The position numbers and the translations under genes were made by a program. Shown one piece after another: positions 7,899 to 12,207 of a stretch of 64,000 bases of DNA. The notes below the pieces were generated by a model. The model had not been told where the DNA came from and made no database searches. It worked only from the letters and a program-made list of their open reading frames with translations. The DNA is from Rhodoferax sp. BAB1 (GTDB taxonomy: Bacteria > Pseudomonadota > Gammaproteobacteria > Burkholderiales > Burkholderiaceae_C). The DNA lies in contig NZ_CP054424.1 in NCBI RefSeq assembly GCF_013334205.1, forward strand, positions 454,001-518,000, given 5' to 3'. Each line of letters opens with the position of its first letter. Position 1 is the first letter of the stretch.

Positions 7899-9497
7899 TC
7901 AACTCGTCTTCTTCACTGGGGGCCTGCGCATCCAGCGGATGGGTTGCGCCTTGACGGGGCGCGCCGGTACGCCGTGTTTTACCAGAGCCTGATCGAGGGT
8001 TTTCCCGGCGTCATCGGCCAGGGCCGCTTGGCGTGCCGCGGCGATCGCGGCGGCACGTGCATCGTCATGTTCGAAATGGTCGGCCACGGCCAGGTGTTGC
8101 ACCACGTGCAGCAGGTTGTCCTTGCCGCGCTCGTTGGTGGAGCCGTAGCCCTTGATCAGGCGGCCGCACAAGGCCAGCTCGTGGCCCGTGGGCCAGTGGC
8201 GAGCGGTGCTGCCCACCACGGCGGCCAGCCATTGTTCGATCAGCGCCTGCTCGGTGGCATAACGGCTGCCCAGCGGGCGCAGCGCGCGCAGCATGGCCAG
8301 GCCACGCAGGGCCAGCATGCCGGCTACCGAATGGGTGCCGATCTTCAGCGGCAGGGCCCAGGGCGTCTTGCCGGCCAGCACGCGTTTGCGGTCCCAGGCC
8401 AGCACGCGCTGCGCCAGGTCCGTGGGCAGCAGGGCGGCGAACTCGGGCGCGCCGGGTTTGAAGTGGTCGTAGAGCTTGAGCAGGTCGGCTTCGCCGGCCT
8501 TGACCTCGCCCAACACACGCGACCAGCGGCTGGCGCGGCTCTTGAGGTCGGCCACGCGGATGATGTCGTCGAAGGCCATCCACAGCGCCAGCCAGCGCGC
8601 CATCTCGCGCGTGACGGCCCAGCCGCGTGTGCCCTGCGGATCGCTCGCGCGCTCGGCCGCCAGCACCTGTTGCAGGCGCTCGATGTAGCGCTGTGCGTAG
8701 GCGGCGTTCTGGTACTCGACCAGGCGCGCATGGCCCAGGGCGATGATCTCGTGCAGCACGCCGGGGAAGAGCGCGGCCACGGGGGCGGGCAGGGCCGGCA
8801 CTTCGGCGGCCGGGGCCACAGCTTTCGGTGTGAGCACCTGCTCGATGAATTGAGCCTGCGTGCGCTGTGCATGCACGGCGTCGAAGCCCAGGGCAAAACC
8901 ACGCAGGCTGGCCTGGGCACTGCCGCCGCTGTCTTTGAGGATGGCTTCGTACTCGGCGCGGCCCATGGGCAGCAGGCCGCTGGCGGCGATGCAGCCCAGC
9001 ATCACGGCGCTGACGATGGTGCCGGCCTGGCGCGTGAGTTCGGCCATGTCCAGCACGTGGTGGGCGCGGCTGTGCGCGGTGATGAGGTTCAGCAGGCCCT
9101 GCGCGTCGCGCCGGCCGTCGCCCATCTGCATCTTTTCCATGGTGGTCAGCGCGCGCGCCGTGGAGCTCAACACCAGGGTGCGGTCGCTGCTGGCGTGGCC
9201 CAGGCTGATCTGGCGCACGGTCTCGAGCAGCTCGCTGGAGACCAGGGCGTCGAGCCGGCCCGGCATGGGGTAGAGGCCCAGCACGGGGCGTTTGCCATCC
9301 AGTTCCTTGACCGGGACGGGGAAGACTTCGAGGTAGTAGGTGGTGGCGCCGGTGCGCTGGGCCACGCCGGGGATGGAGGTGGCTTGCACGGGGTAGCCGG
9401 CGTGACGGGCGGTCTCGACCAGCCACTCGGTCAGCACGCCGCCGCCTTCGCCGCCTAGGGCGCAGAGGAGGAGGGATATTGGTTGTTGTTGGCTCAT
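7899..9497 (-). CDS. iorB: Indolepyruvate oxidoreductase beta subunit with C-terminal extension
   Basis: A 532-residue protein. Residues about 1-200 form a 2-oxoacid:ferredoxin oxidoreductase gamma-type domain (LLLCALGGEGGGVLTEWLVE at the start, then GVAQRTGATTYYLEV). The rest is a large helical region of unknown function found in the long betaproteobacterial forms of this subunit. With IorA it should oxidatively decarboxylate arylpyruvates to aryl-acetyl-CoA, passing electrons to ferredoxin. It is unusual that 544 bp containing a fold-back element separate it from iorA, since these two genes are normally adjacent. The Bug receptor gene follows 20 bp downstream. Confidence 0.88.
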   Translation of the reverse strand: MSQQQPISLLLCALGGEGGGVLTEWLVETARHAGYPVQATSIPGVAQRTGATTYYLEVFPVPVKELDGKRPVLGLYPMPGRLDALVSSELLETVRQISLGHASSDRTLVLSSTARALTTMEKMQMGDGRRDAQGLLNLITAHSRAHHVLDMAELTRQAGTIVSAVMLGCIAASGLLPMGRAEYEAILKDSGGSAQASLRGFALGFDAVHAQRTQAQFIEQVLTPKAVAPAAEVPALPAPVAALFPGVLHEIIALGHARLVEYQNAAYAQRYIERLQQVLAAERASDPQGTRGWAVTREMARWLALWMAFDDIIRVADLKSRASRWSRVLGEVKAGEADLLKLYDHFKPGAPEFAALLPTDLAQRVLAWDRKRVLAGKTPWALPLKIGTHSVAGMLALRGLAMLRALRPLGSRYATEQALIEQWLAAVVGSTARHWPTGHELALCGRLIKGYGSTNERGKDNLLHVVQHLAVADHFEHDDARAAAIAAARQAALADDAGKTLDQALVKHGVPARPVKAQPIRWMRRPPVKKTS

Positions 9498-10041
9498 GTT
9501 CTTTGGCCTTGCTCGGTGCGCTTTGGGTTGAGGCTTGCGTTTTTGTCTGCGACAGCTGGTCTGCCCCCCACTCTCCCCCCCGCCCCTCTCTGCCCCCGCC
9601 GGGGCAGAGAGGGGAGCCTGGATTCGGTTGTTGGCGTTTTGGGGAGGCTTCTACGGCACGAACCGTCGCTACCGTGGTCTGGGCGCCAGCATTTCACGCC
9701 GGCGGTCGTAGTAAATGGCTGGGCTTTGGCGTGCCAACGACAGCGGCCGCTGCGCGGCCTGCTGTGAGCGAGACAGGAAAGGTGCGGGGCGTCTTTGTTT
9801 TTTGTCTCGTCACTGGCCGGCACAGCCGCCAGCCGTGGCGCACAGATGGCGGCGCGTTCTCTACGACCGTGGGCGTGCCAATCGGGGAGAGAAGAAGCGG
9901 TGGCGACGTGCCGCGCCATAGAAGCGTAACCGGCGCGAAGCAACCAAATCAAGGCCCCCCTCTCTACCCCGGCGGGGGTAGAGAGGGGCGGGGGGGAGAG
10001 TGGGGGGTTACAAAAGTGACTAAACACAAACCACCTCAAGT
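9498..10041. other. Long non-coding gap between iorA and iorB
   Basis: This 544-bp gap between two genes that normally abut contains the 444-bp fold-back element plus short flanks (66 bp on the iorB side, 34 bp on the iorA side). I see no coding sequence: the frames open across it are arbitrary and lack start signals. No target-site duplication is obvious at the element borders. Confidence 0.7.
9564..10007. mobile_element. 444-bp fold-back (MITE-like) element with 67-bp terminal inverted repeats
   Basis: The two ends, 9564-9630 and 9941-10007, are 67-bp inverted repeats with 62 of 67 positions identical and no gaps. Each arm contains its own perfect 14-bp hairpin (9583-9614 and 9957-9988). 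Outside the arms, the interior also pairs imperfectly with itself to the apex: GCTTCTA...CGTCGC at 9648-9670 mirrors 9903-9927, CGGTCGTAG near 9712 mirrors ACGACCG near 9862, and CGAGACA at 9769 mirrors TGTCTCG at 9803. The whole unit would fold into one long rod. It carries no transposase and sits inside the iorA-iorB transcription unit. Confidence 0.8.
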
Positions 10042-12207
10042 TCAAGCAGGTTGCAGCACGCGAACAACGCCACGGCGAACCGATGCAAGCAAGCGCTCAT
10101 ACCAGGAAGGGTTCTGCACCACCTCAGCCCGGTAGAAGGAAGGACACAAAGTCGCCGCATGCGCATTGGCCCCACACAGACCACACCCCACACACCCATC
10201 AATCACGGTAGCAACAGGATCCACCTTCAAAGGATCCGGGTTGTCCTTCAACGTCAAGGTCGGGCAACCCGAGAGCCGGATACAGGCATGGTCACCGTTG
10301 CAGACGTCCTCGTCCACACCGTATTTCACCCGCTCCACCCGCTTGCCCTTCTTCAGCAGACTGGCCAGCCAGGGCTTGATACGGCGCTGGCGTTCCAGCT
10401 GGCATTCACCCTCGGCGATGATGACCTTGAGGCCGTTGAAGTCGGAGGTGAAGGCGTCGATCAGGGTGCGGCGTACATGCTCCACCTCGTAGGTGGTGAC
10501 GGTGCGCAGCCACTGCACGCCCAGGCCCTTGAGGGTGGTCTCGATGGTCTGGTTGGTGTGGACCACGCTGGCGCGCTTGTCGATAGCCTCGTCCTTGGCT
10601 TCGTTGCCGGGGGTGGAGATGATGTCCTGCGTGCCGGTGGCCGAGGTGTAACCGTTCTTGAAGATCAGCAGCACGGCGTCGTCGCCGTTGAAGAGCGCGC
10701 TCTGCACGCCGGTCAGCAGGCCGTTGTGCCAGAAGCCGCCGTCGCCCATGACCGAGAGCACGCGCCGGTTCATCATGGGTGAGACACCCGCGCGGCTGGC
10801 CAGGCTCATGCCGTAACCCAGGATGGAGTGGCCGAAGGAGAAGGGCTCGAAGGTGGCCAGGGCGTGGCAGCCGATGTCGCCCGCGATGTGCACCTGGCCC
10901 ACCTGCTCCTGTGCGAGTTTGAGTGCCGAGAACACCGGGCGCTCCGGGCAGCCTATGCACATGCCCGGCGGACGGGCCGGCAGGGGCTGGCCGCTGTGTT
11001 TCGTGATCTCGGTGGCGATGGCGGCGCGGCGATCGCGGTTGCCCTGTAGCCAAGCGGGCACGATGGTCGGCAGCAGCTCGGAACGGTACTGGCGCAGGAA
11101 TTTCTCCAGGCCGCCGGCCATGACCTCGGCCGAGTACTCGCCAGCCAGGGCCAGCATGTCCTTGCCGTGCAGCGGGGTCTGGATGTCGGCACGGCGCAGC
11201 ATCGTGGCGAGTTCCTGCTCGATGTACTCGGGCTGGCCTTCTTCGACCATCAGCACGGCGCGTTTGCCGATGCAGAACTCGCTCAGTTCTTCGGGCACCA
11301 GGGGGTAGGTGACGTTGAGCACCAGCAGCGGGATGTCGGTCTGGCCAAAGGCATCGGCCAGGCCGAACTGCTGCAGGGTGCGGATCAGGGTGTTGTACAG
11401 GCCGCCCTGCACCACGATGCCCAGGTCGCTGTGTTTGCCGGCGAACAATTCGTTCAGCTTGTGCTCGCGGATGTACTGGCGCGCGGCCGGAACGCGTTGT
11501 TCGCTCTTGAGTTTCTCGTGGCGGAAGGTCACGGGAGGATGCGCCAGTCGCTCGTAGTTGAAGCTGGCGGGTTCTTCCATCAGGTCGCGCGTGGACACCC
11601 TGGAGATGCGGTTGTCCTTGGCCTGGAAGCTGCCGCGCACGTGGCAGGCGCGGATGCGCAGCTCCAGGATTGCCGGCATATTGGAGGCCTCGGACAGGGC
11701 GAACCCATGCTCCACCATGTCGACCATACGGCCCAGGTCGGGCCGCGGGTCGAGCAGCACCATGCCGGACTTGAGCGCGTAGGCGTGGGTGCGCTCCTGG
11801 ATCACGCTGGCGCCCTCGCCATAGTCCTCGCCCACGACGATGAGCACACCACCCGTGACGCCGGGGGACGAGAGATTGGACAGGGCATCGGCCGCCACGT
11901 TGGTGCCGACGATGGACTTCCAGGTCACGGCGCCGCGCAGCGGGTAGTGGATGGAGGCGCCCAGCATGGCGGCGGCCGAGGCTTCGTTGGAGCAGGCCTC
12001 GACGTGCACGCCGAGCTGGTCCATATAGGGCTTGGCCTGCACCATGACGTCGAGCAGATGCGAAACCGGCGCGCCCTGGTAACCACCCACATAGGCCACG
12101 CCGGACTGCAGCAGGCCCTTGGTGATGGCCAGGATGCCCTCGCCATGAAAGGTCTGGCCCTGGCCCAGCGCCAGGGACTTGATCTCCTGGCTGAATGAAA
12201 CTTCCAC
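10042..12207 (-). CDS. iorA: Indolepyruvate oxidoreductase alpha subunit (ThDP, Fe-S)
   Basis: A 721-residue fused 2-oxoacid oxidoreductase subunit. Residues about 1-330 are the pyrimidine-binding and transketolase-C-like part. CIGCPERP near residue 415 and the ThDP motif GDGGFWHNGLLTG near 475 mark the PP-binding part. The C-terminal ferredoxin region (about 630-705) has CVGCGLC...LCP for one 4Fe-4S cluster, while the preceding motif has only three cysteines spaced C-x5-C-x5-CP. That differs from the canonical CxxCxxC and may hold an altered cluster. Role: CoA- and ferredoxin-dependent oxidation of arylpyruvates. A LysR gene is divergent upstream; iorB follows beyond the fold-back element. 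Confidence 0.92.
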   Translation of the reverse strand: MEVSFSQEIKSLALGQGQTFHGEGILAITKGLLQSGVAYVGGYQGAPVSHLLDVMVQAKPYMDQLGVHVEACSNEASAAAMLGASIHYPLRGAVTWKSIVGTNVAADALSNLSSPGVTGGVLIVVGEDYGEGASVIQERTHAYALKSGMVLLDPRPDLGRMVDMVEHGFALSEASNMPAILELRIRACHVRGSFQAKDNRISRVSTRDLMEEPASFNYERLAHPPVTFRHEKLKSEQRVPAARQYIREHKLNELFAGKHSDLGIVVQGGLYNTLIRTLQQFGLADAFGQTDIPLLVLNVTYPLVPEELSEFCIGKRAVLMVEEGQPEYIEQELATMLRRADIQTPLHGKDMLALAGEYSAEVMAGGLEKFLRQYRSELLPTIVPAWLQGNRDRRAAIATEITKHSGQPLPARPPGMCIGCPERPVFSALKLAQEQVGQVHIAGDIGCHALATFEPFSFGHSILGYGMSLASRAGVSPMMNRRVLSVMGDGGFWHNGLLTGVQSALFNGDDAVLLIFKNGYTSATGTQDIISTPGNEAKDEAIDKRASVVHTNQTIETTLKGLGVQWLRTVTTYEVEHVRRTLIDAFTSDFNGLKVIIAEGECQLERQRRIKPWLASLLKKGKRVERVKYGVDEDVCNGDHACIRLSGCPTLTLKDNPDPLKVDPVATVIDGCVGCGLCGANAHAATLCPSFYRAEVVQNPSWYERLLASVRRGVVRVLQPA

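Follow-up and report, generated by a model that had tools for sequence, protein, structure and literature searches.

The gap between iorA and iorB in Rhodoferax sp. BAB1 is filled by a giant fold-back element which belongs to a repeat family. Copies of this family occupy common addresses between genes in related species, are found with inverted cores at most of these addresses, and in about half of cases are crossed from end to end by an open reading frame. The family is probably an old fold-back DNA lacking a transposase, which would have been inherited in place and flipped by template switching, and which at addresses inside operons would have gained a maintained, putatively translated bridge. 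The window is the whole analysed stretch of 64,000 nucleotides, 454001-518000 of the genome. The features of the element and its neighbours, in window positions, are:

7899..9497, minus strand: iorB-type gene, downstream neighbour of the element
9494..10045, minus strand: bridge reading frame, 183 codons; a possible TTG start overlaps the iorA stop, and its TGA overlaps the iorB ATG
9498..10041, no strand: complete iorA-iorB gap, 544 bp, nearly all missing in empty relatives
9564..10007, no strand: long quasi-palindrome, 444 bp, with limits set by self-complementarity
9564..9630, plus strand: left outer arm, consisting of C-rich tract and terminal hairpin; the portion common to other genera
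9583..9614, no strand: local hairpin within the left outer arm
9647..9656, plus strand: conserved block GCTTCTACGG of the left arm (sequence and consensus), counterpart at 9916-9925 on the minus strand
9703..9711, plus strand: conserved block CGGTCGTAG of the left arm, counterpart at 9861-9869 on the minus strand
9740..9765, no strand: left apical local hairpin, for which the copies show compensatory changes
9813..9832, no strand: right apical local hairpin
9941..10007, minus strand: right outer arm, complementary to the left arm at 93%
9957..9988, no strand: local hairpin within the right outer arm
10042..12207, minus strand: iorA-type gene, upstream neighbour of the element

The earlier note had described a 444-bp quasi-palindrome with 67-bp arms and no transposase gene, occupying a 544-bp gap between two normally adjacent genes, and all of this was borne out. 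The outer arms (67 nt each, 310 nt apart) align at 93% complementarity, and self-alignment shows 70% self-complementarity across all 444 bp. The centre was computed at 9785.5, matching the apex given before. NCBIfam profiles place the iorA and iorB products in the indolepyruvate oxidoreductase families, with iorA under the model cut-off. Folding of the 444 nt, which the note had suggested, gave -302.6 kcal/mol for the gene-strand RNA compared to -191.4 +/- 5.7 in 100 shuffles (z -19.5); the plus strand folded as DNA has a z of -13.0 against shuffles. There is no sign of an intrinsic terminator: between 9400 and 10150 a G+C-rich hairpin with a T run behind it was detected once, and 1.0 such sites are expected. 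Rfam searches returned 12 weak matches across 6 loci, none of them at the gathering score.

The iorA-iorB junction is readable in 25 of the 26 genus genomes. In eight the gap is filled (499-573 bp). Another 14 have -7 to 18 bp between the two genes; these are the empty sites that the note had proposed to look for. About 525-550 bp were therefore added at this place: the palindrome keeps its 444 bp, but the insertion is larger than originally given. It is bordered by T-rich and A-rich flanks. The three other readable genomes carry another repeat of 103-124 bp (L075, L076, L080), and none of the 17 unfilled gaps contains an HMM match to the family. The copy in G020 sits at a contig end. In the tree of iorA plus iorB the filled species belong to one group of 11, inside which G005 with G017 and, separately, G006 are empty. 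One gain followed by two losses is thus the simplest history, and several gains are possible.

Two further addresses show a similar mixture. At ispH-serS (25 genomes) ten have the element, ten are empty (30-47 bp) and two are incomplete, and G003, G007 and G008 carry an unrelated double hairpin of ~400 bp. The latter represents a second palindromic family (L299:2450-2850, ispH-serS in G003) with hairpins of ~245 and ~93 bp; it has 11 matches each in these three genomes and none in the 23 others (among at most the 26 best candidates). At FmdA-AmiE (12 genomes) six have the full element, four are without it, and G003 and G008 retain a single-arm relic of ~105 bp. Other repeats were seen at FmdA-AmiE in G002 and G007.

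The fold-back family is repeated within the genome of Rhodoferax sp. BAB1: 28 BLAST matches were found at nine or more places (among the best 40 of 48 candidates), with copies of 353-486 bp. The notion of a fixed, unique spacer with neither copies elsewhere nor a long-range fold, named in the earlier note as the refuting case, is contradicted by these copies and by the empty sites. At least 16 of 60 genomes have matches (E<=1e-6, at most the best 10 candidates per relative), namely 15 of 26 in the genus (own genome included) and G027, a member of another genus. The half-unit has a fixed order: C-rich tract, terminal hairpin, GATTT, GCTTCTACGG, GTCGC, CGGTCGTAG, apical hairpin. In 105 of 113 pairs the spacing between GCTTCTA and GTCGTAG is 50-51 nt. 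An extra hairpin similar to GAGCACGCGCG... lies inside an arm in L029 (in both arms), L070, L074, L133, L111, L139 and L141. Address-specific stems, for example GCCTGACGGCGC / GCGCCGTCAGGC, adjoin the C/G runs on their outer side and lie between T and A runs; these were matched by eye and show no excess in a within-address permutation (743 of 2000).

Among the matches listed, 72 loci were taken, 69 from the genus and 3 from G027; 68 copies possess both halves and 67 were oriented. By flank sequence, all 69 fetched genus copies fall into ten orthologous intergenic groups of 2 to 11, and the three G027 copies lie outside of these. A GTDB pattern scan uncovered 39 stretches, of which 38 were HMM-confirmed, all 38 at the same ten addresses (with the caveat that the scan pattern was derived from known copies, so that diverged private copies could escape it, and that the assemblies are largely those of the fetched set). 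The 39th, on a Leptospiraceae contig, was taken as a chance match. Copies of the same genome are only slightly more alike than others, so homogenisation within genomes is not apparent.

The family is seated between unrelated gene pairs. Neighbours in the own genome that score over cut-off include serS, ispH, rsmG, a lolC/E gene, dapF and the deoxyinosine glycosylase gene; an AddB-like neighbour is far under its cut-off. Copies lie between codirectional genes at 28 of 33 loci compared to 62 of 98 own-genome background pairs (P 0.006), and between divergent genes at 1 of 33 (P 0.007 against background). For this comparison genes were called with an own codon model. Other genera supplied 23 of the 33 loci; the class of one locus was decided by majority, and one tie was counted as not codirectional. 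The other-genus palindrome L323 was left out, and for 2 of 25 a gene was missing on one side.

The element appears to be constrained. At iorA-iorB its identity in HMM match columns is 0.805, compared to 0.705 at 4-fold sites of iorA and iorB, with the element ahead in every one of the 28 pairs. By BLAST, identity to the own copy is 77-83% (with partial coverage in some), above the 4-fold value in six of seven species and level in one. RNAalifold predicted 110 pairs in one subfamily and 113 in another, of which 16 and 20 have changes on both sides (A1 and A2 comprise 20 and 19 copies; copies were excluded if they had an extra hairpin, long gaps or a truncated end). In subfamily I, 17 pairs have both-side changes against 10.1 in shuffles and 53 cells against 23.8, with 0 of 500 shuffles as high in either case, although the shuffles do not allow for the relatedness of the copies; slid controls gave 1 to 7 pairs. 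Within addresses, a copy's own arms pair no better than arms exchanged between orthologues.

Constraint, common addresses, constant block spacing and pairing above shuffles would also fit a DNA structural site under selection, comparable to REP/BIME, with a role in supercoiling, replication or nucleoid organisation. This explanation is quite unlikely. G006 groups among carriers (support 0.979 in the iorAB tree), yet two of its addresses read as empty and no copy is present in the best 10 of its 36 candidates. Nested or related genomes without a copy also exist at all three addresses examined genus-wide.

Inversion of the core in place is widespread. With loci oriented by their flanks and 6 ambiguous copies left out, both orientations of the core are found at 7 of 10 addresses. 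At ispH-serS, for example, the flanks of G000 and G016 align plus to plus at 87-90% and the element aligns in minus orientation at 83.5%. A single orientation is seen at iorA-iorB (9 of 9) and Rieske-EamA (10 of 10), and lolC is ambiguous. For the species placed on the tree at least nine inversions are required. An excerpt of one study describes that template switching between inverted repeats inverts the spacers between them (PMC8604942). The flips may have arisen in this way, or through recombination between the arms.

Assembly error in the inversions or the palindromes themselves is extremely improbable as an explanation. Several relatives are indeed MAGs, G016 copies contain N runs and odd C/G runs, and the dapF inversion rests on two genomes alone, G000 and G016. 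However, the own genome is a single contig of 3.82 Mb, and the element recurs at the same addresses across many assemblies. The flips are confined to certain addresses, and G014 and G016, which are neighbours on the tree, have common flips at two of them, which argues against random assembly error. These common flips also speak against a phase-variation switch inverting within one strain, a very improbable reading. The presence of both orientations at 7 of 10 addresses would agree with such a switch, but iorA-iorB and Rieske-EamA are invariant, and no promoter-like site was detected in 9400-10150.

The own element is crossed by two open frames, one of 218 codons on the plus strand and one of 183 codons on the gene strand, neither of which has a Pfam match. 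Among 66 copies a frame is open through the whole element in 35, where 9.5 would be expected from dinucleotide shuffles. At the eight addresses with known gene direction, 28 of 56 copies have such a frame on the gene strand and 12 of 56 have one on the opposite strand. The gene-strand frame is open in 7 of 9 copies at iorA-iorB, 6 of 6 at the addB/addA-like address, 4 of 6 at FmdA-AmiE (not one common frame) and 10 of 10 at Rieske-EamA; at the four other codirectional addresses the counts are 0/4, 0/10, 0/2 and 1/9. Since the copies are related, the species are not independent in these counts. In other genera the gene strand is open in 5 of 10 copies and the other strand in none (10 of 20 codirectional copies were taken).

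The gene-strand frame spans from the upstream stop region to the next start in 6 of 8 copies at iorA-iorB, 5 of 6 at the addB/addA-like address and 10 of 10 at Rieske-EamA. At these three operon-like addresses its stop overlaps the next start (ATGA) or abuts it (TAA or TGA before ATG) in 21 of 24 readable copies; the remaining three are the G009 copy and two from G016 that contain N or odd G runs. At iorA-iorB the remaining two frames contain 2 to 6 stops in most copies. The two addresses without any flip, iorA-iorB and Rieske-EamA, both have a bridge.

Open frames could in principle be a by-product of composition and common ancestry which are not translated. The codon-position signal is slight (mismatch 0.236, 0.214 and 0.246), the frames have no Pfam match and the species are related, all of which agrees with this view. 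It nevertheless seems unlikely. The excess of open frames over dinucleotide shuffles and the gene-strand bias speak against it, and under random substitution at the observed divergence the chance of a frame staying open is 0.10-0.16 per pair. The frames are also anchored on the downstream start even though gap lengths differ by non-multiples of three. The slight codon-position bias suggests that any selection on the bridge acts mainly against stops; if so, its amino-acid sequence would hardly matter.

Translational coupling by stop-start overlap is known in the ATGA and TAATG types. The putative bridge resembles these, as its stop overlaps or abuts the start codon that follows, and differs from them in that the coupling frame consists of an inserted giant palindrome. 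In empty relatives iorA and iorB nearly touch or overlap, and so the natural reading is that stop-start coupling was probably restored after insertion. A copy that splits a translationally coupled operon would come under selection against stop codons, which would keep the bridge frame open and could carry ribosomes to the next gene. Ribosomes leaving iorA would melt the hairpin and restart at iorB. A bolder reading, less likely than not, is that giant hairpin elements have become parts of operons, kept at set addresses, flipping in place and crossed by ribosomes along a maintained frame of ~140-290 open codons. Translation would then open a hairpin of ~300 kcal/mol, and how far the next gene is expressed would depend on the ribosome traffic through it. 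Such elements would offer a natural system for the survival, flipping and ribosome crossing of giant hairpins.

The earlier note had also proposed that as RNA the element would be a rod-like structure within the operon and may set the ratio of the two subunits. A consequence at the RNA level gained support from the bridge frame, which in 6 of 8 copies ends by overlapping the iorB start as ATGA and so fits coupled translation. The subunit ratio fared less well: most relatives lack the element, unrelated gene pairs host the family, and the gene strand does not fold better than its complement. An influence on the IorA/IorB ratio is possible. A stronger version, in which the element is a domesticated operon regulator whose mRNA hairpin and bridge frame set the amount of the downstream protein, is rather doubtful. 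It would account for the very stable RNA fold, for bridges that end at the start of iorB and, at two other addresses, at that of the following gene, for the codirectional placement and for the bridges at both never-flipping addresses. However, the better fold belongs to the gene strand in 0 of 8 copies at iorA-iorB, in 15 of 43 across the genus and in 9 of 20 from other genera, the element is lost or absent in the nested relatives G005, G017 and G006, and the bridge may merely repair the damage of insertion.

An old fold-back family inherited in place, the reading preferred here, implies that copies once moved. In an ancestor the family may have been spread by a trans-acting enzyme recognising the C-rich hairpin ends, with copies later inherited in place and sometimes lost. 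Past mobility is inferred, as no mobilising enzyme was identified and no target duplication was found in the genus: the longest common flank repeat is 5.54 compared to 5.42 with swapped flanks (46 of 300 as high). Across mixed genera 1 of 200 was as high, in a comparison that mixes genomes of different composition.

Several candidate partners and sources were rejected. Of the 26 genus genomes 25 possess a Y1 transposase (PF01797), 22 of these as a single gene, and they include genomes both with and without elements. The own Y1 transposase scores 78.6 against the NCBIfam REP-transposase cut-off of 80, and no element HMM match lies within 6.5-8.5 kb of the Y1-transposase gene in G000, G016 and G002. 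The Y1-transposase gene of REP type was located at L155:3753-4490 (G000, 2822 kb). Reverse transcriptase occurs in 9 of 26 genomes and is absent from G000, G016, G010, G013 and G018. For a plasmid or phage origin blastn gave no match, and of 69 viral pattern matches none was HMM-confirmed. Of the 20 neighbours scanned in other genera, one is a transposase.

In E. coli, long palindromes are cleaved by SbcCD. None of the 26 genus genomes has SbcD over cut-off (there is a single weak match), where 13 of 14 control profiles matched, and this may let giant hairpins persist. As SbcD is over cut-off in just 17 of 200 genomes of the bacterial family and missing in 183 (some match in 62), the loss of SbcCD as a specific cause is weakened.

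The family shares traits with several known systems. REP, BIME and REPIN sequences are described, in the available part of one paper, as intergenic inverted hairpin units with no transposase inside, thought to be mobilised in trans (PMC6006769). The element is likewise intergenic, hairpin-forming and free of a transposase, as in these RAYT-associated repeats so far as that part describes them. Unlike REP, it is ~275-525 bp long and present at nine or more places in the own genome, rather than a high-copy short palindrome, and it was not found beside a RAYT-type gene in the three genomes checked. REP units carry GTAG or GTGG directly 5' of the hairpin according to the same excerpt (PMC6006769), whereas the ends here are mostly GTAA, TTCTT, GGTCT or similar, with GTAG at some (by eye). 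Orthologous addresses, core inversion and bridge frames further distinguish the family from REP.

MITEs and ERIC/RU repeat units are also short, lack a transposase and have terminal inverted repeats (here the 67-bp arms). The element differs from them in being palindromic over its whole length, and neither a target duplication nor a parent transposon nor a private insertion was detected. In enterobacteria, small mobile sequences carrying open reading frames have been described, as an excerpt reports (PMC2759123). Template-switching quasipalindromes resemble the family by their inverted arms and inverted intervening sequence (PMC8604942, in excerpt), but the yeast spacers in that excerpt changed by a few bases, whereas here cores of hundreds of bases are inverted in a repeat family. 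TIRYT elements (Y1 transposases with terminal inverted repeats) have a consensus starting with GGGG in the portion of text seen (PMC6006769), which is a lead only; unlike TIRYT, the element has no transposase gene between its inverted ends. In open-licence literature, judged by title or the start of the abstract, no description of this fold-back family was found.

The family extends beyond the genus. A sequence-only half-unit model has matches in at least 23 of 299 genomes and at least 16 of 141 genera of the bacterial family, at least 15 of these 16 being other than the own genus (strict filters, best 7 candidates per genome). Of 36 stretches, some of which overlap, 27 were confirmed as long palindromes; they come from eight other genera, and the G027 palindrome was verified as well, giving nine other genera in all. 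Across genera the ends are closely similar and the cores are different. In G199 the same IS-like end abuts palindromes L343 and L344 at their left boundary (by eye), and the left neighbour of L343 is an IS3-type transposase (rve, HTH_Tnp_1).
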